From: an uncultured Clostridia bacterium
Lineage (GTDB): Bacteria > Bacillota > Clostridia > Oscillospirales > Acutalibacteraceae
Direction: 5' to 3'
Assembly (NCBI GenBank): GCA_947625785.1
Contig: CANQPS010000009.1
Coordinates: 1 to 64,000 of the forward strand
DNA: 64,000 bases
In this document: positions 22,275 to 40,518 of the stretch, piece after piece
Numbering within the stretch: the stretch's first letter is position 1
How the letters are laid out: every line of letters starts with the position of its first letter
Position numbers and translations under genes: made by a program
The notes under the pieces: model-generated
The model's input: only the letters and a program-made list of their open reading frames with translations
The model's database searches: none
Told to the model about the DNA's origin: nothing

Positions 22275-22286
22275 GGTGGTATATTG

Positions 22287-25200
22287 ATGAATGATTTAGA
22301 TTTAGAAAATATTGATATAGACGATATAGATATAGATACGCTTCTTGAAGAAACAAAATATTTAGTGGAAAAAGCAAAGGCAGAAGAAAATGCTAAAAAT
22401 TTAACAAAAGATGAAATTCCTAATATAAAAACATCTCATTTTAAAGAAGAAAAGAGCGGTGTTTTCGGTAATTTAGGTAATAAAATTATTTCTAAATTTA
22501 AGGGTAAGGAAGGAAAACACACAATCGAAGAAAATAACATAGATTATACTGTTGAAGAAAAACAAGCAGAAACATATACAGAGTATGCACCATCTTCTAA
22601 GACAGAAAGTAATATTACACAAACGGATTATAATAATTATAAAGATTTAGGTGTGCCGATTGATTCTATGCCTTCGCCTGAAAAATACGGGGATATACAT
22701 ATACCGCCTGCAGAAGATGAGATTGATAAAATAATTGATGAGAGTGATAAACCGGAAAATTTAAATGACTTAAAAAATAAGAATAATAATCCCAAAAAAC
22801 TAAATATTGTTAATGGAATAAAAAAATTGATTGGGGTTAGTGACAGTGACCCGGTTGAAAAAGAAAGACCATCATTATTCTCGTTTATAAACAATATAAA
22901 AGATATTGGTAATTCTCTTAATGAGGAAAATGATGATATTGAAGATGTTGAAGTGGATATTTCTATTAAGGAAAATATGGAAAATATATTTAGTACAAGT
23001 GAGCATACTATAAGATTGACTAATACAGACCCCCTTGATATTGAAGATGAGAAAAATAAATCAAATGATGTAATATCTTCCGAAAAAAATATCGTAAATA
23101 CTTCTGATAATTCTGTTGTTGGTGATATTACCGACAATACCAAAGATTTTAAAAAATTTGATATTATCTCAAAAGATGGAAGTGATAATATTGATTTTTC
23201 AAATTTAAAAGATATAAATCTTTCAAATGATTTTGATGAAGATGATGAGTTGACCTTAAATATACTTTTTGGCAAAGGTGTGAATAATATATCTCAGCCT
23301 AAGCCTAACGAAAAAGATATTAAAGAGCAGGCTGATGAAATACTTCGTATTCAGCAGGAGAGAGTAAAAATTCAACCGAATTTAGTAGAAAAATACGCCG
23401 ATAAAAAGGAAAATATTGATAATGATAATATTATAAATATTGCTGATGTTTCACAGGAAAACGAGCCTGATGGGGAGAATACAAAAATTTTCAAAAAGCC
23501 TGTCATTGTTAAAAAGGTTGTTTCTGCGAATACTGTTAAGACTAAGCAAAATAAACCAAAAGTAAATGTTAAAATTATGGGAGGAGAAAGCATCAAAATT
23601 AATAATGAAAAAATTGGAGATGATGAAATAAAAAATATAAGTGATGAAAAAATGGAAAAGATTACTGATGCCACTTTAAAGCTGATAAAGGATAAAGAAA
23701 AAGAGATTGTTGGAAGTGACGGAGAATATCCTGTTTTATATGGTGATAATCAGACGACAAAGCAATTTGACAATATTAAAAAGCAAGATGATAAAATTAA
23801 TAGCTTTGTCAAGCAAAATAAAATTAGTAGTATATCTAAATATACTATACCAAAAGATGAAGATACTATTGTAATTACAGTAGGAAGTTTTTCAAAGACG
23901 GTATCTTTTGAATATGATAATTATAAGAAAATCTCTAAATTTAAGAACGAAGATAAAGCTGTATCAAAAGATAATATAGTCGATATTAATAAGAATAAGA
24001 ATGATAAGGCAAGTAAAAAAAGTTTATTGAAAAAAAGTTTATTGAAAAAAAGTGATAAGAAAAAAGAAGAAAGGGTTATAGATGATGGTGACCCTGTACA
24101 GGCGGAATATAATGAAGATACATATTTATTATTAGAAGATTATTCTGACCCAAAATACAAGGATACTATAAAAGAAAACTTAGCTTCAGACAGAAAATCA
24201 CTGGTTTTAAGAAGTATAGGAATTACACTAATAACATTTGTATCAATTCTTTGTGCTGTATTGAATTGTTTTACAGGAAATATATTTTCTGCATTAAATA
24301 TAACACATCACGAATATTTTGGAATAATGGTGGATTTCATTTTAATATTACTTGCGATTTTAGTTTGTAGAGGTACACTCATAAATGGCTTTAATGGTTT
24401 GTTTACTAAGGGAAATGGTGATACTGCTGTTACATTTGCGGTTATTATGGTTGCCATACAAGATATTGCTGTATTTTTTGCCCCACAAGGTTATAGAGAG
24501 GGAGTAATCAGTCTTTATTCTGTTTTAGCACTTTTGGCACTTATGTTAAATATATACGGAAAGTTATTAATTGCTAAAAGAGTTCAGGAGAATTTTAAGT
24601 TTGTATCATCTGATAAGCAAAAGTATGTCAGCAAAATTTATGATAAAGATATATTTGCCAATGCTTTGATTACAGGAACAGCCGTACATAAACCTTTTAT
24701 AGCTTATCAAAGAAAAACAGGATTTTTGAAAGATTTTTTAAAGTTATCATATATTCCGGATAGTTTAGAACTATTATCCGGTAAATTTGCAAATATTGGT
24801 GTGTTGATTTCGTTGGTATTTGGCGTAATTTATGGTATTATCAGCAAAAATATCGTAGAGGCTATTTCGGCTGCGGCATTGTGTTCCTGTATAGTTACGC
24901 CAATATGCAATATATTTGGATTTAATATACAATTAAATAAGATTTGCAGCGATTCTCTTGAAGATGGTGCTATGATTATAGGTACGGAGGGTGTAAAACA
25001 ATTTTGCGATACAAATGCTGTAATGCTTGATGTTAAAGATTTATATAGTGGAAGTAATATTAAATTTTGTGGTTTTCACCCTATAAATAATAGTAATCAA
25101 GATGATTGTATTAAATATGCAACATCACTTACGATGGCATTGGATAATCCGTTGTGCGAAATGTTTATGAAAATGGTAAAAAGTAAGTCGATTATATTGC

Positions 25201-25868
25201 CTAATATAGACAGAGAGCATACAATTTATGAAGACGGAAAAGGTATAGTTGGTTGGGTTGATGGCAAAAGGGCATTTCTTGGCAATAAAGACCTTATGAT
25301 ACAATATGGAATAAATATACCTGAGTTTGATTATGACGAAAAGTATGCAAAAGAAAATAAATATGTTATTTATGTGGCTGTATCCAGCAAATTATTGGGA
25401 ATGTTTGTAATAAGTTACAAAGCTAATGCCGATATGGTGTGCGAGCTTCAAAGAATGGAAGAAAACGGCATAAGTTTTTTAATTAGAACAACAGATTGTA
25501 ATATTACTGCTGAAAAAATTTCAAAGGATTTTGGAGTATATTTGCGTTCGGTTAAGATATTGTCATATCAATTTGGAAATGCTTGTAAAATTGAAAGAGA
25601 AACAAAAGATAAATCTACAAGAGCTTATATGGTAACAAGAGGTAAAATGAGTGCTTTTTGCAGAGCATTATCTGCTTGTGTAAATCTGAAATCAAGAATG
25701 TCAATAGTTAAAAATCTGCAAATAAGTTCTGTTATTATAGGGGTAGTATTATGTATAATATTATCTTTAATATCGGGAGTATCTGCTTTAAATGTTATAA
25801 AGCCGCTTATATATGTTATAGTTTGGATATTTATAATATGGTTAGTGCCTAAGTTCAATAAATTATAG
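22287..25868 (+). CDS. P-type-ATPase-like membrane protein lacking catalytic motifs, with long acidic N-terminal tail
   Basis: A 1193-residue protein. Residues 1 to about 620 are low-complexity, Asp/Glu/Asn/Lys-rich and look disordered, ending in a basic patch with the duplicated SLLKKSLLKKS. From about 640 there are hydrophobic spans, then a C-terminal part whose order mirrors P1B-type ATPases: a span with IVTPICNIF where CPC would be, then GAMIIGTEGVKQFCDTNAVMLD in the place of the G..(I/K)G.E.LE...(V)..DKTGT segment. Here D915 is kept but KTGT is replaced by VKDLYS. GWVDGKRAFLGNKDLM matches the nucleotide-domain G.v.G..v.vGn motif. TTDCN (1068-) stands where TGDN is expected, and no GDGxND motif follows before the final spans. 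I therefore call it a pseudo-ATPase. Function is unknown. It sits between rlmB and rpe. A TTG just before the ATG is an alternative start. Confidence 0.65.
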   Translation: MNDLDLENIDIDDIDIDTLLEETKYLVEKAKAEENAKNLTKDEIPNIKTSHFKEEKSGVFGNLGNKIISKFKGKEGKHTIEENNIDYTVEEKQAETYTEYAPSSKTESNITQTDYNNYKDLGVPIDSMPSPEKYGDIHIPPAEDEIDKIIDESDKPENLNDLKNKNNNPKKLNIVNGIKKLIGVSDSDPVEKERPSLFSFINNIKDIGNSLNEENDDIEDVEVDISIKENMENIFSTSEHTIRLTNTDPLDIEDEKNKSNDVISSEKNIVNTSDNSVVGDITDNTKDFKKFDIISKDGSDNIDFSNLKDINLSNDFDEDDELTLNILFGKGVNNISQPKPNEKDIKEQADEILRIQQERVKIQPNLVEKYADKKENIDNDNIINIADVSQENEPDGENTKIFKKPVIVKKVVSANTVKTKQNKPKVNVKIMGGESIKINNEKIGDDEIKNISDEKMEKITDATLKLIKDKEKEIVGSDGEYPVLYGDNQTTKQFDNIKKQDDKINSFVKQNKISSISKYTIPKDEDTIVITVGSFSKTVSFEYDNYKKISKFKNEDKAVSKDNIVDINKNKNDKASKKSLLKKSLLKKSDKKKEERVIDDGDPVQAEYNEDTYLLLEDYSDPKYKDTIKENLASDRKSLVLRSIGITLITFVSILCAVLNCFTGNIFSALNITHHEYFGIMVDFILILLAILVCRGTLINGFNGLFTKGNGDTAVTFAVIMVAIQDIAVFFAPQGYREGVISLYSVLALLALMLNIYGKLLIAKRVQENFKFVSSDKQKYVSKIYDKDIFANALITGTAVHKPFIAYQRKTGFLKDFLKLSYIPDSLELLSGKFANIGVLISLVFGVIYGIISKNIVEAISAAALCSCIVTPICNIFGFNIQLNKICSDSLEDGAMIIGTEGVKQFCDTNAVMLDVKDLYSGSNIKFCGFHPINNSNQDDCIKYATSLTMALDNPLCEMFMKMVKSKSIILPNIDREHTIYEDGKGIVGWVDGKRAFLGNKDLMIQYGINIPEFDYDEKYAKENKYVIYVAVSSKLLGMFVISYKANADMVCELQRMEENGISFLIRTTDCNITAEKISKDFGVYLRSVKILSYQFGNACKIERETKDKSTRAYMVTRGKMSAFCRALSACVNLKSRMSIVKNLQISSVIIGVVLCIILSLISGVSALNVIKPLIYVIVWIFIIWLVPKFNKL

Positions 25869-29750: not shown

Positions 29751-29779
29751 TTGACTACTGATATAATTAGTAATAAAAT
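29751..29779 (+). promoter_or_regulatory. Sigma-A promoter of the kinase/surface-protein cluster
   Basis: TTGACT (29751-29756), a 17-base spacer and TAAAAT (29774-29779), about 60 bases before the start codon. Confidence 0.7.
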
Positions 29780-29840
29780 AAAATTGGCATACTTTATTTT
29801 AATATATGTTATGTAGTTTGTAAGAGATGTGGTGATGCAA

Positions 29841-31928
29841 ATGAGTGCAATAGGTACAGTACTAAGCGGCAGATATGAAATAATATCTGAACTTGGACGA
29901 GGTGGTACAAGTACCGTTTATCTTGCAAAAGATAAAAATCTTGGCTCATATTGGGCAGTAAAACAAGTTGATGGCGATTTAAATAAAGATATGGATTCCT
30001 TTAAAAAAGAGGTCGAACTGCTTTCGACTTTACAACACTCGGATATACCAAGAATAGTTGATAGAGTTGAAATTGGAAAAGATTATTTTGTTGTGATGGA
30101 TTTTGTTGATGGTACTTCATTAGGGAAAAAGGTTGAGGCAGAAGGACCTCAGCCGGAAGAAAAAGTAGTAGAATGGGCTAAAATGCTTTGTGATGTACTT
30201 GATTATCTTCATAATGTTAAAGGAGCAAATCCAATAGTATATAGAGATATGAAACCGGATAATGTAATGCTTATGCAATCTGGCAGAGTAAAACTTATAG
30301 ATTTTGGTATAGCAAAAGAATGTGAAAGAGGTAAAAAAGTATTAGGTCCGCCTGTTGGCACAAGAGGATATGCTTCCCCTGAACAATATAAAAATTCAAG
30401 TAATATACTTGATGAAAGGTCCGATATATATAGTCTTGGCTGCACTCTTTATTATGTTATAACAGGCATAACTCCGGGAAAACCTCCGAACGGTTTAAGA
30501 CCTTTAAGACAGATTAATCCTCTTATATCAGAAGGTATGGAGTATATAGTAAAAAAATGTACCAACTTTAATCCCGAGGACAGATACCAGAACTGTCGTG
30601 AACTCAAAAAAGATTTAGAAAATATTGGAAAATTTAATTCTTCTTATAAGAAGAAAATGAGTAACAAAATTTTATTATGTGCAGGCAGTTTAGCAGCAAG
30701 TCTTGCATTTCTAATATTGACAATAATTGGGTATAATGGTATGGAAACTCAAAAAGAAAACAGCTACCAAGCATCTTACCAAACTGCGATAGAGTATGAT
30801 AGAAAAGGTGATTATACAAACGCAGCAAAGTATTATCGTGAGGCAATAGGATATAATGACAGTGATTACGAAATATATATAAAATTGTTTGAAACATTAT
30901 TGCCGCATACAGTAAATAATGATGATGAAAGAAAAAATCTTATCAAATCTGCCATAGATGAAATGAGAAAAAGTTATATTGATAATAGTAAATCATCTAT
31001 GTACCATAATACAATGGTTATGTATCAGGTTGTTGTTAAAGGTATGGATATAATAGAAGACCCAACATATGCAAAATATTTGCTTGAATATATAAAGTTA
31101 ATTCAAGAAAGCAACGAATACAAAAATAATACTATTGATAAAATTAGAGTGGACAGTTATTATGTAATTGCATCTAACTGTGCAGATGATTTAACAACAA
31201 AAGATTTTAAAGAATTTGGAAAAGCTCTTGAAGAATTGACTAAATCAATAGATGGCTATAATATGGAGGCAGAAGAAAAAGTATCAAATTACTTTACTAT
31301 TTTAAGAATTTACTGTACCTATGCCACCAAAATTGACAGTGCGTACGATAGGATTATTGATATAAGCAATAAAGCCCAAGAACTTATTGTAAATTCAGAA
31401 ATTGCAATTATAGACGCTTCAAGTGAAGAAACAACAGGTATAGAGTACAGCGAATTGGTATCAATTTATAAAACTTTGGCAAATAGATTATATAGTGGTG
31501 CTAAGTCTACAAGTAACATTGATAAACAAAAATTATTGTATCAAAACAGTATAAAGTGGTTTGAACTTTTGGATACATATAGCGTAGATTTAGATATTGA
31601 TTTGAAATTAGTAAAAGGTAATTGTTATAAAGGATTTTTTGATACATACGATAATAAAAATTCGGACGAGGCTAAAAAATATTTAAATATTGCTGTTGAT
31701 TTATATAAGGCTGTTCTTGATGAAAATAATGAAAATTTTTCGGCAAAGGTGTACTATACACAAGCGTTACTTGCCCAAGAAAAAATTTCTCATAGTACAG
31801 GCAGAGTAAATGAAATAAATACTCTATATAAACAACTGTTAAAGCAGTCATCTGATGCCAGTTATACAGAAAAAACGCTATTTAATGCTTTAAAGGAACA
31901 AATGAAAATGGCAGGATTGGGGGTATAA
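29841..31928 (+). CDS. Transmembrane eukaryotic-like Ser/Thr protein kinase
   Basis: Predicted to phosphorylate proteins on Ser/Thr from the cytoplasmic face. The 695-residue protein has a complete kinase domain (residues 10-265): glycine loop ELGRGGTSTVYLAKDK, K41 in WAVKQV, VYRDMKPDNVM with D136, and LIDFGIAKE with D154, then an activation loop with PVGTRGYASPEQY. The usual HRD is YRD, as in many Clostridial kinases. One membrane span (about 274-296) leads to an outer part of about 400 residues made of TPR-like helices, not the PASTA repeats of PknB/PrkC, so it should sense something other than muropeptides. In-frame starts exist at 29829 (GTG) and 29835 (ATG); 29841 best fits GGTG spacing and the family start. 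The next gene starts 4 bases after the stop. Confidence 0.88.
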   Translation: MSAIGTVLSGRYEIISELGRGGTSTVYLAKDKNLGSYWAVKQVDGDLNKDMDSFKKEVELLSTLQHSDIPRIVDRVEIGKDYFVVMDFVDGTSLGKKVEAEGPQPEEKVVEWAKMLCDVLDYLHNVKGANPIVYRDMKPDNVMLMQSGRVKLIDFGIAKECERGKKVLGPPVGTRGYASPEQYKNSSNILDERSDIYSLGCTLYYVITGITPGKPPNGLRPLRQINPLISEGMEYIVKKCTNFNPEDRYQNCRELKKDLENIGKFNSSYKKKMSNKILLCAGSLAASLAFLILTIIGYNGMETQKENSYQASYQTAIEYDRKGDYTNAAKYYREAIGYNDSDYEIYIKLFETLLPHTVNNDDERKNLIKSAIDEMRKSYIDNSKSSMYHNTMVMYQVVVKGMDIIEDPTYAKYLLEYIKLIQESNEYKNNTIDKIRVDSYYVIASNCADDLTTKDFKEFGKALEELTKSIDGYNMEAEEKVSNYFTILRIYCTYATKIDSAYDRIIDISNKAQELIVNSEIAIIDASSEETTGIEYSELVSIYKTLANRLYSGAKSTSNIDKQKLLYQNSIKWFELLDTYSVDLDIDLKLVKGNCYKGFFDTYDNKNSDEAKKYLNIAVDLYKAVLDENNENFSAKVYYTQALLAQEKISHSTGRVNEINTLYKQLLKQSSDASYTEKTLFNALKEQMKMAGLGV

Positions 31929-31932
31929 CATA

Positions 31933-32376
31933 ATGTATGAATTATTTTTTTATGTAGGTATAGTATTGTGTATAGCTTGTTTTGTACTTTCGATATTTCT
32001 GTTCTTTTCACAAAATGTTATAGGTGCTATTAAATACTTTTTAAAATTGGATAAAAAGATAATGAAAAACGATAGAAATAACAATAATGTTTCTGTACCT
32101 GTTTTAGTACAAAATAATACATTAAACAATCAAAATAATGTCCTTAATGCGAGCCTTTTAAATAGTACTGCCACAAAAAATAATCAAAATATTTCAAAAT
32201 CTGATGATAAACAATCTATTTCTGATTTAAGTTATGAGCCTACTGAGGTTTTAGATTACAGTGCTGATATGGATATTGACGAAAAAACCGAGTTGCTTGG
32301 AGTAGCAAATTTTGCAACAGCATTACTTGATGCGGATAGTACAATAGTTTTACCGAATATTGAAGATGAGGTGTGA
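31933..32376 (+). CDS. Small membrane protein with repeated T-x-(V/L)-L motifs, possible kinase substrate
   Basis: A 147-residue protein that I do not recognise as a named family. It has one N-terminal membrane span (about 5-27), a basic stretch (KLDKKIMKNDR), then an Asn/Ser-rich disordered middle and an acidic tail. In the tail four similar motifs occur: T104-EVL, T119-ELL, T129-ALL and T137-IVL, mostly preceded by acidic residues. Acidic-T-x-(V/I/L)-L motifs resemble kinase sites read by FHA domains in Gram-positive bacteria. It lies between the kinase gene (4 bases away) and the giant surface-protein gene (3 bases away), so it is very likely translated from the same mRNA. Its role as an adaptor or substrate is inference. 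Confidence 0.6.
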   Translation: MYELFFYVGIVLCIACFVLSIFLFFSQNVIGAIKYFLKLDKKIMKNDRNNNNVSVPVLVQNNTLNNQNNVLNASLLNSTATKNNQNISKSDDKQSISDLSYEPTEVLDYSADMDIDEKTELLGVANFATALLDADSTIVLPNIEDEV

Positions 32377-32379
32377 TAG

Positions 32380-35300
32380 ATGGATAAATTTAAAAATAGT
32401 AAAAAGAAAAGAGTAGCATCGGCTGTTTTGACTGCCACTGTATCATTTGCAATATTATTTGGAGATGGCAGTATAGTAAATGCAGAATCTTATGTTAAGC
32501 AAGATGGAGAAAATGGCTTTACTTATTATGAGAACGGAAGTAAAGTAGCATCTCTTGTGCTTGAAAGGCTTAATGAAAATACTCAAAAAGCGATAGTTTT
32601 TACAAAGGATTCTGATGGAATATTTACAGTACATTCATTAACGGTTGTAAGTGATGATAATAAAATTGCTATTACATCAGGTGATGATTTATCTAAAACA
32701 TACTATGTAGGTTTTACAGAAGATAATTCAATAACTTATGAAATGGCAAAAGAAAAGTTTGATAATGCAACTATTGTAAGCGAGGATAAAACAAATAATA
32801 TTTACACAATTAAAAAAGGTGAAAATAGTATTGATATTAAAAAGACAGATGTTGTTATTGATGATAAAGCACCTGATATGGAAATAAACAAAGATACAGA
32901 TAAATATACTTTTTCAGTTAATGTTACAATTAACGCAGTAGATAATTGTGAAGACCCGACAAATGTCCTGCAATATGCATATGCACCAAAGGGAAGCAAG
33001 CCACAAGAGTGGACAACAGATAATAATTTTACAATTTCAAGTAATGGCGAATTTACATTTTATGTAAAAGACAGTAATGGGAATAAAAATCATAAGAGTG
33101 TAGAGATTAAAAACATAGTTACACAAAATGAAAATTACACAATAACTAAATCTGTCGAGCATAATGAAAATACTGAGAGCGGTCCAAGTATTGCAAGTTA
33201 TAATATATCGATAGAAGGTGACGAAAATACAGAATATTGTTATATGACAAGAAACGGTAAAGCTAATTTATTGAGAGAGGATACAAAATTTAAATGGGAG
33301 GATAATTCCCTATACAGTTTAGATGCAAACAATCTTAAAAAATATATTGGTATATTTGAAAAAAATAATGAATTAGTCAATTTGCAAATAGTGAAAACTG
33401 ATGACATAAATCTTAGAATTAATAATTATCAAAAAGATATAGAAAAATCGAATAATAAGAAATATGTCGCTGCTGTTTCTATTACATCAGAGAAAGATGA
33501 TATTTCAATTAATGATATAAAAAATAAGTTATCAGGTGAGATTGAAAACGGTACGGTTTCATTTAGTGTTGATAAGGAAAAAAATCTAATAATAATAACA
33601 GTCAGACCGGAAGAAGATAAAAGTGTAAACGGAGATTTGAAGGTTAGTTATCAAAATGATGATGGTACCGTTGAGTATTTTGTTGTAGAAAATGTTATTA
33701 TTGATACACAAGAACCTGAGGTATCGGTAAAAGATGATTACAAAGATAGCACATATAGAAAAGAATTATATCCTGTTGAAATAGCAGTATCCGATAATAT
33801 ATCAAAAGATATAACCATCAATGCACGATTAGTTGATAGGTTAACTAACAACATAATTGCTGACAATAAAGTCGAAGGTAAAGATTTAAATATAAAAGTT
33901 GAGAAGAATGGTGATAATACCTATATTATCAATGTTGAGGGTGACTATAAGGAAAAAATTAACGCTAAATTGCAGGTAGAAGCTATCGATGAATACGGAA
34001 ATATTAAGACATTTGCTAAGGTTTGCGATTATAAAGTTGATTTTGTAAATCCTAATATAAAAGAATCGGAGATTGAGGATTTAGAAGAAAATCTTGTGAA
34101 TGGTAAGAAATATAATATAAGTGTACAAGCAGAAGATGAAGAGTCTGGTATCGCTAAGGTAGAAATTGTATGTGGTAATAAAAGTATAGAATTATCAGAA
34201 AGCAAAGAAAATCCCGGATATTATGAAAAAAAGGGTGTTATTCTAAGTGAAGAGTTTGAAGACCAAATTTCTGGCGATACTTTGGTATTTAGTGTTAAAG
34301 TTACAGATAATTCGGGAAGAACCTCAACAAAAGAATTAAAAAGTGTAAAATATTATAACTCTATTAAATTAATAAGTTCCAAATGTATGATATCACCAGA
34401 TGATAATGAGTATCTTAACGATGGAGAAGATATAGTTTTAACATATATTTTTGACCATAAAGTAGAAATAGACGATGTTATCGTTAATGGTAAAAAGGGA
34501 ATAGAAGTTTATAATAGCAGTGTAACCCCAATATCCGGAGAATATCAATATAGTGCTATTATTCCTTATGAAAAAATTAAAGATATTCTTAAAGATGGAG
34601 AAGATGTTGTCATATCTATTGTTGCATCTGATGATAATGGAAATAACGAAGAGTTTACATCGGAAGATAAAATAAAATATTATAAAGAATTTGGCATATT
34701 AGATGTAACTTTAAAATCAAATAATAAAACAAGTCCGACAGCTGTCAAAAAGGGTAATAAGTTAACTTTAAACTTTAAAACGAGTAAGGCTATTACAAAT
34801 TTAGATAAGGCAGAAATTCAGATTGGTGGACAAAATGTTGCTTTTACCTCAAAGGATTATGAGAATTGGGAGGCAGAATACACTGTTACAGGAGAAGAAG
34901 GCTGGACAGATACACAAAGTATTACAGCAAATATTACAATAAGAGATAATGCAGGTAATTATGCACATAATGAATTATCAGATACCGATATAACATATTA
35001 TAAGTCTATTAATATTGCAGAAAGAAGTATTTTAATTAAAAACGAAAAAGGAAAAAATATGGTTAAAGATGGGGATAAGGTATTTATTACATTCTCTACA
35101 AATCATAAGGCTGATAGTATTGTTGCTAAAATAGGTGAAAAGGAATTAGAGGCAAATTCAGAGGATCATATAAACTGGACAATAGAATATACAGTTGACG
35201 GGGCTGATGGTTTAGTTGACGATAAAACCTTATATTATGTAAATGATACACTGAATATCAATATTACTGCAAAAGATATTGCAGGCAACTCATATCGTGC

Positions 35301-38300
35301 CGTAATTAAAAGTTTTTCTAATACAGAAACAGTAAGGTATCAAGCACCTGTGCATATAGGCGAAATAAAAGTCAAACCGGATAGTGTAGCTGTTGGAGAT
35401 GAAGTTATAATTAATTTTTCGGTAGATGATACAGTAGAAAAAGCAATAGTTATCATTGATGGAAAAGAATTTGAAGCAACTCCTACAAATAACAGTAAAA
35501 CAAAATGGCAGTTAATTTATACGGTTACAGAAGATAATAATTTTACAGATGTTGCTGATATTCCTATAAGTATTTCCGTAGAAGATATAGCCGGCAATAT
35601 AGATACAAAGAAATTTGAAAAATCAGGCGTAATATATTATGGCGATTTAGCGGTAGATGTTACCGAGATAAAAAGTTCAAATTCTAATTCAGACACCGTC
35701 AAAAAAGGTGACACAATAGACTTAACCTTTGAAATAACAAATGGGCATATAATAGATATTAGTAACCCTGATAAAGTAAATATAAAAATCGGAGGATTGG
35801 CTGCAAAAATAACTGCTGTTGAAACAGAAGAAGGTTCAAATAATAAATTTAAGGCAACAGTTATAGTCGATGATAGTCTTGAAGATTTATCAAATATACA
35901 ATATTCCATATATGCAGAAGATTCCGTTGGTAATAAATATGCGGATAGTAAAGAAACAAATATAATTTATTATTCGGCATTAAGTATAATTGATGGTAGT
36001 ATTAAAGTGGTATCTGATAATGAAAATTCATCTTTGGCAACATTCGGCAATACTTTAAAAGTTGAATTTTTGACAAATCACGAAATCACAAATGAAACAG
36101 TTATTATTAATGGTCTTGAAGTAAATAAAAATGATATAAAATTTATTGATTTTAATGAAGATGGTCAAGCTATATATGAAGCTGTTTTTAAGATAGATGA
36201 TAATTTTTATTTAGGTCAGCCAAATGAAGATGATTTTATTATTCCGATAGTGATATCCGCAACAGATACAGCAGGTAATGAAGTTATATCTGATAATAAT
36301 AGTTTATCTGAAATACTTGTTACATTTGGTGCAAAAGTAAATATTACAAATATTAATATAATATCAAAAAATAATGATACTTCTGTTATAGCACCGAATG
36401 ATAAAATTCAAGTCGATTTTAGTACAGATGATGATATAATCAGTGCAGATATTAAGGTTAAAATCGGGGAAATAGTTATTTCCGAAACTACTTTGGATAT
36501 AAATGATATTCAAGATGTTTATAGTACGATTATTGAAATACCGGACTTTTATACACTTTTAGAAAAAAATGTAATTGATTTAGATGATATTAGCGTAGAA
36601 ATTTCTGTAAAAGATAGATACAGCAATCAAGATAGTCAAATTCAATCTACAACTATAAAATATTATGGTAATATTGAGATAAAAGATATTAAAGTTGTTT
36701 CTGATAATGTTAAAAGGAATGATGTTGCTAAGGATGGTAATATTATAACAGTATCATTTACAACAAATCATACTGCGACAGAGGCAAAAGTAAATATTAA
36801 TGGTAATGTTATTGAAGCTGAGAAAACAGACGGAATTAATTGGTCCATAAAATATGAAATTCCGGAAAATACATTCGAAGATACAAAAAATATTATTGTA
36901 TCCGAAATATCTGTAACAGATATGGCAAGTAATAGCTGCACAGAAAATGATTATATCGGAGAAGTTGTATATTACGCACCTATCGTTGTTTCTGATATAT
37001 CAGTTAATACAAATAACGCAAAAGATGGCACAAAATATGCAAAAAATAATGATATTGTAACTATAAAATTCAGTACAAACCATTCCATATCCATAAAAAA
37101 TATACTTATGGGAAATGGTACAGAATTGAATATTATTTCACCGGAAAGTAAAATAGATAGCAGTATCGAAAATGATAAATATACTTATACAATTCAATAT
37201 ACAATACCTAATGGAACAACTTTAAAAGACATTCAAAATATTGCCGTAAAAGTTGATGTATTTGATATAGCTGAAAATGAAAATTATTTGAATAATGAAA
37301 GTTCGGTTGTATATTATGCTCCTATTGTTATGAGTGATATAGTAATGTCGTCAAATAATGTAAGTAAAAATAGTTATATTGCAAAAGATGGGGATATAAT
37401 AACAGTTAATTTTAATACAAATCATAATGTTGTTGTAGAACAATCGACAATATCAGGTCAAGAAACAACAGTTTCAAATAATGGTAATGTATGGTCCTTG
37501 ACACATAAACTTGTAAACGGAGATGTATTAAACGATAATTCGAATATCAGTACATATGTTAAAGTTTCAGATGCTGCAGGAAATGAAATGGATTACAGGA
37601 ATTTATATGATAATAATACTGTTGTTTATTATAAGCCTATCGAACAAAGTATAAACAATATAACTATGACAAGCAGCGAAACAGATACAAACTTAAATAA
37701 TGGCGATACAATGTTTTGGAATTTAACAACGACACACCCTATTAGTACAGATAATACATATATCGAAATTAACGGAAATAAAGTAAATTTTGTATTATTG
37801 TCAAGCACAGGAACTGAATATATATATCAATCCAGTTATGTTATACCTGCTGCGAATAATTTTACAGATTTTGGAACAATAAATTATAATTTGTTTGTAA
37901 ATGATTCTGCTAAAAATACTACTTATAAAAATAATCAGGATAGAACAACTAAGTTTACATACTATGCGCCAATTCAGATAACAGATATTGCTATTAATAC
38001 AAATAACTCAAATAATGGTACAATGTATGCTAAAAATGGTGATACGGTAACAGTATCATTTACATCTAATCATATGATTAATATTGATACGGCTACAATA
38101 GCAGGTGTTGCAGCAAACATATCAAGCAACAGATTATCAGGCAATAATATGCACTATACTCTTACATATATGGTTACACAAGGTACGCTGTCGGATTTAA
38201 GTGTAGTACCATTTGTATTTACAACATCTGATGCGGCAAGAAATATAACAAGTCCTATAACCAACACCTCTAATGGCGTTAGAAATACAATTACATATTA

Positions 38301-39645
38301 TGCACCTATAACCGCAACTGCAAAAATTTCATCAAATGCCTCAAATCCATCATTTGTATCAAATTCGGGTGTGGTTACCGTAAATCTTGAAACAAATCAT
38401 AATACTACAATTTCAAATGCTGTCGTTGGTGGATACAACGCTGTAACAAATGGTGCAAATACATTAACCCCATATTTAACATATACTATTCCATCAAACG
38501 AAAGCACATTATCGCAGGGAACTTTGAACTTTAATTGTAATGTAATTGATGTTGCCGGTAATGTTCTTACAGTGACAGATACACCGGGTTCAGTAGTAAT
38601 ATATGATAAAGATAAACCGACTGTATCAATAGTTCCTGATTTATCATCGTTTATAAATAAAGAAATAACATATACTGTTACAATTTCTGATGCGAATATT
38701 GAAGCGAACTATATAACAATAGCTGTAACAACAGATGGCAGCACAGTAATATATCCTGTAACATATTCTGATATTATCTCAAGTGGTGGAAGCACTGTTT
38801 CAAAGGAGATTACCTTATCTAAGGACGCAGAATATCTTATTGAAGTGACGGCAAGGGATAAGGCTGATAATACGGCAGAACCAAAAACCGTAAGAGTTAC
38901 GATTGATACTATAAATCCTGTTGTCAATGTTGTTGGTATAGACTTAAATACACCTAAGACATATAAGAAAGGTCAGATTTTAGGAGATTTCTTTGATATT
39001 ACCGAAAAAAATGTAAAGGATATAGTTTGTACTGTAACAGACAGCAAGGGTAATGTACAAGATTGGTCCTTAGATAAGCCTATTACTGAAGATATGGACG
39101 GCAGACAAACATTTACTTTGCAGGTTACAGACCTTGCCGGTAATACATCAAATGTAATTACTTATGATTTCTATATTGACAATACAAAACCTAAATTTGT
39201 AATATCAGATGATATTACTAATACTTCGCTTAATACTTCTATAATGGATACATTTATATCTGATATGAAAATTAATATTTCACTTGAAGATATACGCATT
39301 GGTGATAATGGATTAGACCGTTTTACATCTGCTAAGTTAATAAAACCGGATAATACAGAGATAAATCTTTTAGGTTCTGATGCAACAAAGGCTATTTTAT
39401 TTGAGTTAAATTCTTCAAACTTTGAGGACGGGGAATACAAATTAATATTAAGTGCCATAGATGATATGGGAAATGATACAGGCGAAACAGTATATACATT
39501 TGAATTTAAGGATAAATCTATATTTGTAAAATTCTTTGAAAATAAAGGTTTATTCTATACATCAGTTGCAATAGCAGGTGTACTCATTATTGCAGGTATT
39601 GTAATTATAATTAAAAAGAAAAAGAAAGACCAAAGTAATAATTAA
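32380..39645 (+). CDS. Giant surface protein with 13 tandem Ig-like repeats and C-terminal membrane anchor
   Basis: A 2421-residue exported protein. A signal peptide (about 1-35, ending VNAES) is followed by a long beta-rich region with DxxGN/AGN motifs typical of bacterial Ig-like domains. From residue 658 to about 2075 there are 13 tandem repeats of about 109 residues, each opening YYxPI-like and containing KDGDxVTVxFxTNH and DxAGN. Two further Ig-like units follow. The C-terminus has one membrane span (FYTSVAIAGVLIIAGIVIII) and a KKKKKD tail; there is no LPXTG sorting motif, so it stays membrane-anchored. Likely an adhesin or a structural filament reaching through the wall. Start ATG has GAGGTG 6 bases before it and lies 3 bases after the previous stop. 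Ligand unknown; cytoplasmic tail only about 10 residues. Confidence 0.82.
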   Translation: MDKFKNSKKKRVASAVLTATVSFAILFGDGSIVNAESYVKQDGENGFTYYENGSKVASLVLERLNENTQKAIVFTKDSDGIFTVHSLTVVSDDNKIAITSGDDLSKTYYVGFTEDNSITYEMAKEKFDNATIVSEDKTNNIYTIKKGENSIDIKKTDVVIDDKAPDMEINKDTDKYTFSVNVTINAVDNCEDPTNVLQYAYAPKGSKPQEWTTDNNFTISSNGEFTFYVKDSNGNKNHKSVEIKNIVTQNENYTITKSVEHNENTESGPSIASYNISIEGDENTEYCYMTRNGKANLLREDTKFKWEDNSLYSLDANNLKKYIGIFEKNNELVNLQIVKTDDINLRINNYQKDIEKSNNKKYVAAVSITSEKDDISINDIKNKLSGEIENGTVSFSVDKEKNLIIITVRPEEDKSVNGDLKVSYQNDDGTVEYFVVENVIIDTQEPEVSVKDDYKDSTYRKELYPVEIAVSDNISKDITINARLVDRLTNNIIADNKVEGKDLNIKVEKNGDNTYIINVEGDYKEKINAKLQVEAIDEYGNIKTFAKVCDYKVDFVNPNIKESEIEDLEENLVNGKKYNISVQAEDEESGIAKVEIVCGNKSIELSESKENPGYYEKKGVILSEEFEDQISGDTLVFSVKVTDNSGRTSTKELKSVKYYNSIKLISSKCMISPDDNEYLNDGEDIVLTYIFDHKVEIDDVIVNGKKGIEVYNSSVTPISGEYQYSAIIPYEKIKDILKDGEDVVISIVASDDNGNNEEFTSEDKIKYYKEFGILDVTLKSNNKTSPTAVKKGNKLTLNFKTSKAITNLDKAEIQIGGQNVAFTSKDYENWEAEYTVTGEEGWTDTQSITANITIRDNAGNYAHNELSDTDITYYKSINIAERSILIKNEKGKNMVKDGDKVFITFSTNHKADSIVAKIGEKELEANSEDHINWTIEYTVDGADGLVDDKTLYYVNDTLNINITAKDIAGNSYRAVIKSFSNTETVRYQAPVHIGEIKVKPDSVAVGDEVIINFSVDDTVEKAIVIIDGKEFEATPTNNSKTKWQLIYTVTEDNNFTDVADIPISISVEDIAGNIDTKKFEKSGVIYYGDLAVDVTEIKSSNSNSDTVKKGDTIDLTFEITNGHIIDISNPDKVNIKIGGLAAKITAVETEEGSNNKFKATVIVDDSLEDLSNIQYSIYAEDSVGNKYADSKETNIIYYSALSIIDGSIKVVSDNENSSLATFGNTLKVEFLTNHEITNETVIINGLEVNKNDIKFIDFNEDGQAIYEAVFKIDDNFYLGQPNEDDFIIPIVISATDTAGNEVISDNNSLSEILVTFGAKVNITNINIISKNNDTSVIAPNDKIQVDFSTDDDIISADIKVKIGEIVISETTLDINDIQDVYSTIIEIPDFYTLLEKNVIDLDDISVEISVKDRYSNQDSQIQSTTIKYYGNIEIKDIKVVSDNVKRNDVAKDGNIITVSFTTNHTATEAKVNINGNVIEAEKTDGINWSIKYEIPENTFEDTKNIIVSEISVTDMASNSCTENDYIGEVVYYAPIVVSDISVNTNNAKDGTKYAKNNDIVTIKFSTNHSISIKNILMGNGTELNIISPESKIDSSIENDKYTYTIQYTIPNGTTLKDIQNIAVKVDVFDIAENENYLNNESSVVYYAPIVMSDIVMSSNNVSKNSYIAKDGDIITVNFNTNHNVVVEQSTISGQETTVSNNGNVWSLTHKLVNGDVLNDNSNISTYVKVSDAAGNEMDYRNLYDNNTVVYYKPIEQSINNITMTSSETDTNLNNGDTMFWNLTTTHPISTDNTYIEINGNKVNFVLLSSTGTEYIYQSSYVIPAANNFTDFGTINYNLFVNDSAKNTTYKNNQDRTTKFTYYAPIQITDIAINTNNSNNGTMYAKNGDTVTVSFTSNHMINIDTATIAGVAANISSNRLSGNNMHYTLTYMVTQGTLSDLSVVPFVFTTSDAARNITSPITNTSNGVRNTITYYAPITATAKISSNASNPSFVSNSGVVTVNLETNHNTTISNAVVGGYNAVTNGANTLTPYLTYTIPSNESTLSQGTLNFNCNVIDVAGNVLTVTDTPGSVVIYDKDKPTVSIVPDLSSFINKEITYTVTISDANIEANYITIAVTTDGSTVIYPVTYSDIISSGGSTVSKEITLSKDAEYLIEVTARDKADNTAEPKTVRVTIDTINPVVNVVGIDLNTPKTYKKGQILGDFFDITEKNVKDIVCTVTDSKGNVQDWSLDKPITEDMDGRQTFTLQVTDLAGNTSNVITYDFYIDNTKPKFVISDDITNTSLNTSIMDTFISDMKINISLEDIRIGDNGLDRFTSAKLIKPDNTEINLLGSDATKAILFELNSSNFEDGEYKLILSAIDDMGNDTGETVYTFEFKDKSIFVKFFENKGLFYTSVAIAGVLIIAGIVIIIKKKKKDQSNN
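34351..38603 (+). repeat. 13 in-frame tandem repeats of about 327 bases in the surface-protein gene
   Basis: Each unit encodes about 109 residues starting near YYNSIKL, YYKEFGI, YYKSINI, YQAPVHI, YYGDLAV, YYSALSI, FGAKVNI, YYGNIEI, YYAPIVV, YYAPIVM, YYKPIEQ, YYAPIQI and YYAPITA. The T-N-H motif is strongest in units 3, 6 and 8-13. The copies have diverged at DNA level, so this is an old array, not a recently expanded one. Confidence 0.85.
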
Positions 39646-39658
39646 TATTTAAAAAATC

Positions 39659-39700
39659 ATATATCCTGTATATTTGATATACAGGATATATGGATATAAT
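39659..39700 (+). promoter_or_regulatory. 15-base perfect hairpin followed by a TATAAT, before the phosphatase gene
   Basis: ATATATCCTGTATAT (39659-39673) and ATATACAGGATATAT (39677-39691) are perfect inverses with a 3-base loop. No T-run follows, so it is a poor terminator. A TATAAT sits at 39695-39700, too close to the start codon for a long leader. It could separate expression of the phosphatase from the surface protein, as an mRNA-processing hairpin or an operator. The role is inference. Confidence 0.6.
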
Positions 39701-39724
39701 AGAGAGGAGGGTTAAGAAAAATTT

Positions 39725-40468
39725 ATGTCGTTGAAATTTGATGTATTTGGTATAACTGATATAGGTACTACTAAGGCTGTAAATCAGGATTGTTTTACAT
39801 ATAGAGTAGTAGATGTTGATAATGAATATTCAGGTGTTTTTGCGGTCGCAGACGGTGTTGGGGGTTTAGACAGCGGAGAAATAGCAAGTTCGATAGCTAT
39901 TTATAATGTTAATGAATGGTGGGAAAATGAGTTTAAATCGCATTATGATGATTATAGCTATATAGTCAAATCCTTAATAGATTGTATGCATCAAAGTAAC
40001 ATAGATATAATAGAAGAATCAAAAGCTAATAATATAAGGTCTGCCTCTACACTATCAATATTATTGCTTTATAAAAATTTATTTACTATTGTTCATACCG
40101 GTGACAGTAGAATTTATAGAGTTAGGGGAACATTAATACCGAAAATGGAGTTATTGACACAGGACCAGTCTTGTCTTGTGCAAAGAAATATCAATGGTCA
40201 AATAGTGATGAAAAGTGTTTTAACTGAATGTTTGGGTAATAGGGAAATGCTTAATCATTATTGTAATAATGGCGAATACAAGAAAAATGATATATTTATA
40301 TTGGGAAGTGACGGAATATGCAAGAAAAATACGGATTCTGAAATACTTTCTATTGTAAGGGCAAATAGAAATAATATGCAGCAGCTTTCCAATACAATGG
40401 TAAATACCGTTAAATCCAAAGGTGAAACGGATAATATTACATCAATATCAATTAAAATTATAGATTAA
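39725..40468 (+). CDS. PP2C-family Ser/Thr protein phosphatase
   Basis: Predicted to remove phosphate from Ser/Thr residues in the cytoplasm with Mn/Mg, most likely opposing the kinase at 29.8 kb. The 247-residue protein has the PrpC/PstP pattern: TKAVNQDCF (D22), FAVADGVGG (D43), HTGDSRIYRVR, LGSDGICK and GETDNITSISI. It is a normal length with no membrane span. Ribosome site GAGAGGAGGG lies about 11 bases before ATG, a strong site. It lies 79 bases after the surface-protein gene with a hairpin between them, and closes the cluster. In most Firmicutes the phosphatase directly precedes the PASTA kinase; here the pair brackets two membrane proteins. Confidence 0.9.
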   Translation: MSLKFDVFGITDIGTTKAVNQDCFTYRVVDVDNEYSGVFAVADGVGGLDSGEIASSIAIYNVNEWWENEFKSHYDDYSYIVKSLIDCMHQSNIDIIEESKANNIRSASTLSILLLYKNLFTIVHTGDSRIYRVRGTLIPKMELLTQDQSCLVQRNINGQIVMKSVLTECLGNREMLNHYCNNGEYKKNDIFILGSDGICKKNTDSEILSIVRANRNNMQQLSNTMVNTVKSKGETDNITSISIKIID

Positions 40469-40485
40469 CAATATTAACATAAGAA

Positions 40486-40518
40486 AACGGCAGTTTGAAA
40501 GCTGCCGTTAATTTTTTA
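40486..40518. terminator. Terminator between the phosphatase gene and nadE
   Basis: AACGGCAG (40486-40493) pairs with CTGCCGTT (40502-40509), followed by AATTTTTTAT. It lies between converging genes and may serve both. Confidence 0.88.

Follow-up and report, generated by a model that had tools for sequence, protein, structure and literature searches.

We analysed a stretch of 64,000 nucleotides from an uncultured Clostridia bacterium (positions 1 to 64,000 of contig CANQPS010000009.1, assembly GCA_947625785.1; hereafter the window), which carries four genes on the forward strand, for a membrane Ser/Thr kinase, a small membrane protein, a giant surface protein and a PP2C phosphatase. This cluster is probably a stand-alone, rearranged copy of the kinase-phosphatase-adaptor-giant module of T7SSe, a type VII secretion system (T7SS), and would act as a phosphothreonine switch read by an FHA-domain protein. 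The observed gene content, homology, conservation, motif code and linkage, set out below, carry this reading. The open reading frames (ORFs) lie at 29829-31928 (699 amino acids (aa)), 31933-32376 (147 aa), 32380-39645 (2421 aa) and 39725-40468 (247 aa), with gaps of 4, 3 and 79 bases in the order kinase, small protein, giant and phosphatase, just as an earlier reading of the letters alone (the original prediction) had described them; they form one operon, which is real and conserved and has a terminator at its end. The features of the four genes were assigned as follows.

29838..31928, + strand: TseD-like membrane Ser/Thr kinase (Pfam, homolog alignment, tree and profile search)
29874..30590, + strand: cytoplasmic kinase domain, catalytic residues intact (Pkinase, 1.9e-45; K45, D140, N145 and D158 invariant)
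30660..31925, + strand: transmembrane (TM) helix and helical (TPR-like) outer domain, no PASTA (AlphaFold model with DSSP; TPR_19, 8e-5)
31933..32376, + strand: TseH/TseK-like small protein with a single TM helix and a cytoplasmic tail (homolog profile)
32242..32352, + strand: four T-x-x-L sites, T104-EVL, T119-ELL, T129-ALL and T137-IVL (motif count)
32380..39645, + strand: TseI-like giant surface protein with a signal peptide and a C-terminal TM helix (repeat and anchor profiles)
34372..38571, + strand: array of about 14 tandem immunoglobulin (Ig)-like units of ~105 aa each (repeat profile, AlphaFold and structure matches)
39418..39636, + strand: TseI-type membrane-proximal motif and anchor (profile of 27 other giants; residues 2347-2419, 5e-11)
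39725..40468, + strand: PP2C phosphatase, grouping with TseF on a long branch (Pfam, metal-site check and tree)

Relation to T7SSe components and conservation of the gene set

The T7SSe parts named in the available text of Garrett & Palmer 2024 (PMC11217815) are the kinase TseD, TseH/TseK, TseI, TseF and TseJ, and the match to these names rests on that text and on domain content. As described there for T7SSe (and also T7SSd and T7SSj), we found a membrane kinase with a helical outer part (TseD) and a single-TM small protein with an unstructured tail (TseH/TseK); the giant with signal peptide, Ig-like domains and C-terminal TM helix (TseI), the PPM phosphatase (TseF) and a DUF6382-FHA protein (TseJ) likewise have T7SSe counterparts in that text, the phosphatase less surely than the others. 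Unlike in the T7SSe described there, neither the TseC ATPase nor the WXG100 proteins (TseA/TseA2) were seen at the window locus, and nor was the ubiquitin-like TseB (no YukD search was made); unlike the T7SSe-type set, the FHA gene lies on another contig and the phosphatase comes after the giant, not before the kinase. Since the components match TseD, TseH(K), TseI and, less surely, TseF of that text, the original claim that no such system had been described was wrong.

For the kinase, ATG 29838 is a likelier start than the listed GTG 29829 because the homologs begin at the matching residue. The AlphaFold model (31 homologs) had a kinase domain, one TM helix (at about residue 279) and an all-helical outer part; no PASTA match was found in this kinase with Pfam, and the TPR_19 match of the outer part was under the family cut-off. 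The search of PDB with the whole model returned kinase domains only, with no independent match for the TPR-like outer fold. Thus, of the earlier proposal of a TPR-like outer part instead of PASTA, the lack of PASTA and the helical character stood, whereas the TPR match is only weak and the fold was not independently confirmed. A kinase profile built without the window gave 427 bits for the window kinase versus 210 for the PASTA kinase of the same genome, and the tree placed the window kinase, on a long branch, apart from the PASTA kinases (support 100); from these comparisons it is assigned as a homolog of TseD. Membership in a PrkC-PrpC pair was rejected: the kinase domain is of the same broad family and has a PP2C partner, whereas PASTA is absent and a canonical PrpC-PrkC(PASTA) pair is present elsewhere in the genome and branches apart. 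The search of relatives with the outer domain alone gave nothing outside the window's genome, because this domain diverges too fast; a cluster unique to one genome, as that search alone would suggest, was ruled out by the conservation of the whole locus.

The profile of 36 small-protein homologs (window excluded) matched the window protein at 4e-10 (next best, 0.44). One N-terminal TM helix is followed by a predicted unstructured cytoplasmic tail, and the protein is, by profile, a homolog of TseH/TseK, the same match fitting TseH or TseK alike. Most of the homologs have a conserved C-terminal tail, H-(S/T)-(D/N)-E-(V/I)-I (e.g. L052:8329-8865).

In the giant, Pfam gave only weak Ig-like matches. 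AlphaFold on 11 window units predicted one repeat unit as a seven-strand sandwich (predicted local distance difference test score 83), and the best structural matches of this model were largely Ig-like domains (Z 7-8.6), a moderate sign of Ig kinship. With the giant-anchor profile, the best single match was the window giant, at its C-terminus; a second giant of the same genome, on contig C12, scored higher as a whole protein owing to its repeats. The window giant is assigned as a homolog of TseI. For the phosphatase, the PP2C match was 1.9e-7 (Pfam) with the metal-site Asp residues kept, and the tree grouped it with the linked TseF-type phosphatases (support 99) on a very long branch; the profile of linked phosphatases scored the genome's own PrpC slightly above it, and the grouping with TseF is proposed less surely than the assignments of the other parts.

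A kinase of the linked type was found in 15 of the 150 genomes of the family, the window's included, with E-values in the 14 other genomes of 1e-73 to 1e-86 versus about 1e-30 to 1e-42 for PASTA kinases; G134 has several kinases of another architecture, and the wider draw from the order gave a TseD-type kinase in 20 of 394 genomes. In all 14 family loci the kinase gene was preceded by a PP2C gene and followed by a small TM protein (mostly from automatic ORF calls; in L041, L048 and L049 by reading other frames), the giant followed in 13 (the contig of L041 ends early), and the FHA gene, usually with a DUF6382 domain, was directly before the PP2C gene in 11. Among the loci examined, none had the phosphatase after the giant, as in the window. 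Each of the three profiles built without the window for kinase, small protein and giant anchor recovered its window counterpart. The set is therefore not linked in this genome only, and its conserved linkage supports what had been proposed from the letters, a dedicated circuit of kinase and phosphatase with the small protein and the giant attached. The four genes named then are conserved; missed were the FHA reader (TseJ), normally adjacent and here unlinked, and the linkage to Tad and T7SS genes seen in related genomes. A protein of ~150 aa with four TM helices (4TM) often lies between the small protein and the giant (L043:8935-9402 and homologs); it has no trusted Pfam match and is not named in the available text of Garrett & Palmer (PMC11217815).

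T-x-x-L sites and the FHA protein

The four T-x-x-L motifs pointed out earlier in the 147-residue protein were present at T104, T119, T129 and T137, versus 0.27 expected in shuffles of the tail, and four were reached in 0 of 1000 shuffles. Across 37 small proteins, the cytoplasmic tails held 128 copies of T-x-[VALIM]-L (shuffle mean 10.5, maximum 22; 1000 rounds) with the family consensus E-E-T-(T/E/D)-V-L; 128 of the 556 Thr residues and 9 of the 497 Ser residues in these tails were in the motif frame. The sites differ in place and number between the disordered tails of the homologs. The linkers of 42 FHA proteins had 75 motifs versus 8.5 expected, often as tandem G-E-T-T-V-L-G immediately N-terminal to the FHA domain, and the motif was at the chance level of the shuffles in the DUF6382 parts of the FHA proteins and in the 4TM proteins. 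FHA domains bind phosphothreonine but do not bind phosphoserine, and pT-x-x-I is among their documented ligands (PMC4037201). The T-x-x-L motifs are a family-wide code, probably of phosphothreonine docking sites for the FHA domain, and on the simplest reading the kinase would write these sites and the FHA domain would read them. The earlier idea of the motifs as phospho-sites thus gains strong statistical support from the shuffle tests of tails and linkers.

The DUF6382-FHA protein of the window's genome is encoded on contig C19 (L006:9938-12952, - strand), unlinked to the cluster; it is 1004 aa long and has DUF6382, zinc ribbons separated by many copies of a Glu-rich repeat of ~30 residues, and an FHA domain in which the canonical residues (S-R-x-H and N-G) are kept. 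The FHA protein of G185 (L043:4159-5889) is a fusion in which a TM-bearing trypsin-like protease comes first, and its linker still has two E-T-T-V-L motifs.

Several observations weigh against a phosphothreonine-FHA switch. Kinase domains (35 vs 20) and PP2Cs (33 vs 20) also had a mild motif excess, with counts that reach the upper end of what shuffles gave, and the shuffle statistics ignore the relatedness between homologs, although the sites vary between tails as noted above. The window small protein has no conserved C-terminal H-T-D-E-V-I tail, the window proteins are divergent (the kinase about 30% identical overall), and the FHA gene is unlinked here, with a linker lacking the E-T-T-V-L motif; the FHA protein may read another ligand. 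Together with the long branches of the kinase and PP2C, the missing tail and the unlinked FHA gene would also suit a functionless remnant, decaying after loss of its machine; however, the four frames are open over 10.6 kb, with the catalytic residues and the four T-x-x-L sites intact, and we regard such decay as very improbable.

T7SS and Tad linkage and other features of the genome

An EssC-type ATPase was linked to the module in G140, G108, L070, L083, L091 (Bifidobacterium), L095, L139 and G188 (L077); in L077 the ATPase match beside the module was rejected as EssC, being the chromosomal FtsK, and that contig has its real EssC-size frame downstream of the giant. G122, G138, G002 and G147 have a Tad locus that leads directly into FHA-PP2C-kinase-small-(4TM)-giant; tadA is co-oriented with these genes and lies 12.6-15.6 kb upstream (Pfam matches in representatives: TadZ receiver domain, T2SSE, two T2SSF, Flp1-like, A24 peptidase and DUF5702/TadE). 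None of these four genomes, which were those covered by the WXG100 search among the Tad-linked ones, had an EssC-size frame or a WXG100 match. The Tad arrangement recurs in seven named loci (Natronobacillus azotifigens, Lachnospiraceae KA00044 and C.4_2, Clostridium lacusfryxellense, Thomasclavelia cocleata and two Lachnoanaerobaculum), with the contigs assigned to genomes from coordinates; no EssC-size frame was found in six of the seven, and L086 has one elsewhere. Tad-linked genomes thus number at least 11, and 10 of the 11 had no detectable T7SS ATPase. L088, with TadV- and TadZ-like matches but no TadA-size ATPase, was not counted. Parsimony on the kinase tree gave at least 5 Tad/T7SS switches, of which the well-supported branches force only 1, and a single origin for all Tad links may apply. 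An N-terminal FHA domain can occur in the Tad ATPase CpaF of class III (PMC12019362), and TseC of T7SSe bears FHA domains according to the available text (PMC11217815); coupling to motors may work alike in the two. In the open literature, no description of a Tad-linked module of this kind was found. Because it occurs on Tad loci in genomes without a detectable T7SS ATPase, the module looks portable and resembles a movable unit for signalling more than a secretion component.

Unlike in these relatives, where the module closes complete Tad loci, no Tad locus was found in the window's genome, with neither TadA/B/C, Flp or TadE genes adjoining the module nor a Tad ATPase elsewhere; the T2SSE matches there were a PilB/PilT-like (type IV pilus-type) pair only. 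The window module is orphaned and rearranged, with the phosphatase last, the FHA gene on another contig and no Tad locus found. The kinase might instead sense the giant or the wall and signal to general envelope control, the giant being an adhesin or sensor stalk with no machine or pilus involved. The lack of a linked machine here fits this, as do G111, G016 and G183, which also have no adjacent machine at the kinase locus, and the giant is always a membrane-anchored Ig-like stalk. However, in G016, G183 and G149, where the kinase unit is on another contig, the partner FHA gene is still 10-12 kb from tadA, and linked FHA genes repeatedly follow machine genes; we consider this explanation quite unlikely.

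Contig C12 of the window's genome has a divergent T7SS-like locus (L009:112-10466, L151:728-10258 and L152) with WXG-like proteins and an FtsK-type ATPase split into ORFs of 1054 and 570 aa, and the only WXG100 matches of the genome, which are weak, are on C12, with none at the window cluster. The window cluster could be the split-off half of this T7SS, serving the C12 ATPase and WXG-like proteins as T7SSe parts do, and its kinase, small protein and giant are all of T7SSe type. The C12 locus, however, has its own membrane kinase (643 aa, encoded separately), a giant of 2931 aa, a two-TM protein and a 4TM protein (related to the one that relatives have between small protein and giant), no FHA domain was detectable in its ATPase (a TseC ATPase with FHA domains was likewise absent from the window cluster), and the module persists in relatives that have no detectable T7SS ATPase. 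We regard a split-off half as unlikely; the window module is thus a second kinase-giant set in the same cell.

Three further features of the DNA accompany the operon.

29751..29779, + strand: sigma-70-like promoter match TTGACT-17-TAAAAT, 5' of the kinase gene (consensus scan)
39658..39692, no strand assigned: 16-bp inverted repeat between the giant and phosphatase genes
40486..40509, no strand assigned: 10-bp terminator-like hairpin, 3' of the phosphatase gene at the operon end

The promoter match is weak alone, the scan of the region having given 103 matches versus 93.5 expected. Elsewhere in the window (22284-25868), a 1194-aa protein has ~650 disordered residues followed by a P1B-type ATPase-like region, which seems to lack the catalytic DKTG and reads DVKD. 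An 837-aa protein (L007:8300-10813, - strand) has a kinase-like domain, a PASTA-like part and an apparent L,D-transpeptidase (YkuD)-like C-terminus.

Proposed switch and its meaning

For the stand-alone T7SSe-type module, we infer phosphorylation, docking, signal direction and output as follows. Under the control of its helical outer domain, the TseD-like kinase would phosphorylate the small protein at the threonines of the E-x-T-x-(V/L)-L motifs that recur along its cytoplasmic tail. The TseJ-like protein of the cytosol (DUF6382-FHA, encoded on C19) would dock on these phosphothreonines via its FHA domain, and PP2C would reset the switch. In relatives, docking would recruit or gate an envelope machine (T7SS or Tad pilus) together with the Ig-repeat stalk; in the window's genome the output machine would be unlinked, and the C12 system (the divergent T7SS) and the giant are candidates for it. 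The original prediction's further proposals, sensing by the outer helices of the kinase and control of the giant rather than of a machine, may also apply. This would work like the PpkA-PppA-Fha pathway of the type VI secretion system (T6SS), in which PpkA phosphorylates TssL and Fha binds it, with a membrane kinase, a phosphatase and an FHA reader around a membrane substrate (PMC3953482). In contrast to that pathway, the place of TssL as substrate would be taken by a small protein with several sites in its tail, the envelope is Gram-positive, and no T6SS genes were seen near the window module.

We give an even chance to the broader view that the family has a portable phosphothreonine-FHA cassette, with an E-E-T-x-V-L docking code, joined to two unrelated machines (T7SS and Tad) and also occurring alone, the giant being its own envelope-spanning stalk and not a T7SS conduit. 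Beyond the available text of Garrett & Palmer 2024 (PMC11217815), the motif code and the Tad linkage are new. The Tad-linked module without a detectable T7SS ATPase means that none of TseD, F, H, I and J is specific to the T7SS; the suggested role of TseI as a secretion conduit needs re-testing. The motif code names exact threonines and peptides, with which phospho-control of Gram-positive pili and T7SS is testable in culturable species.

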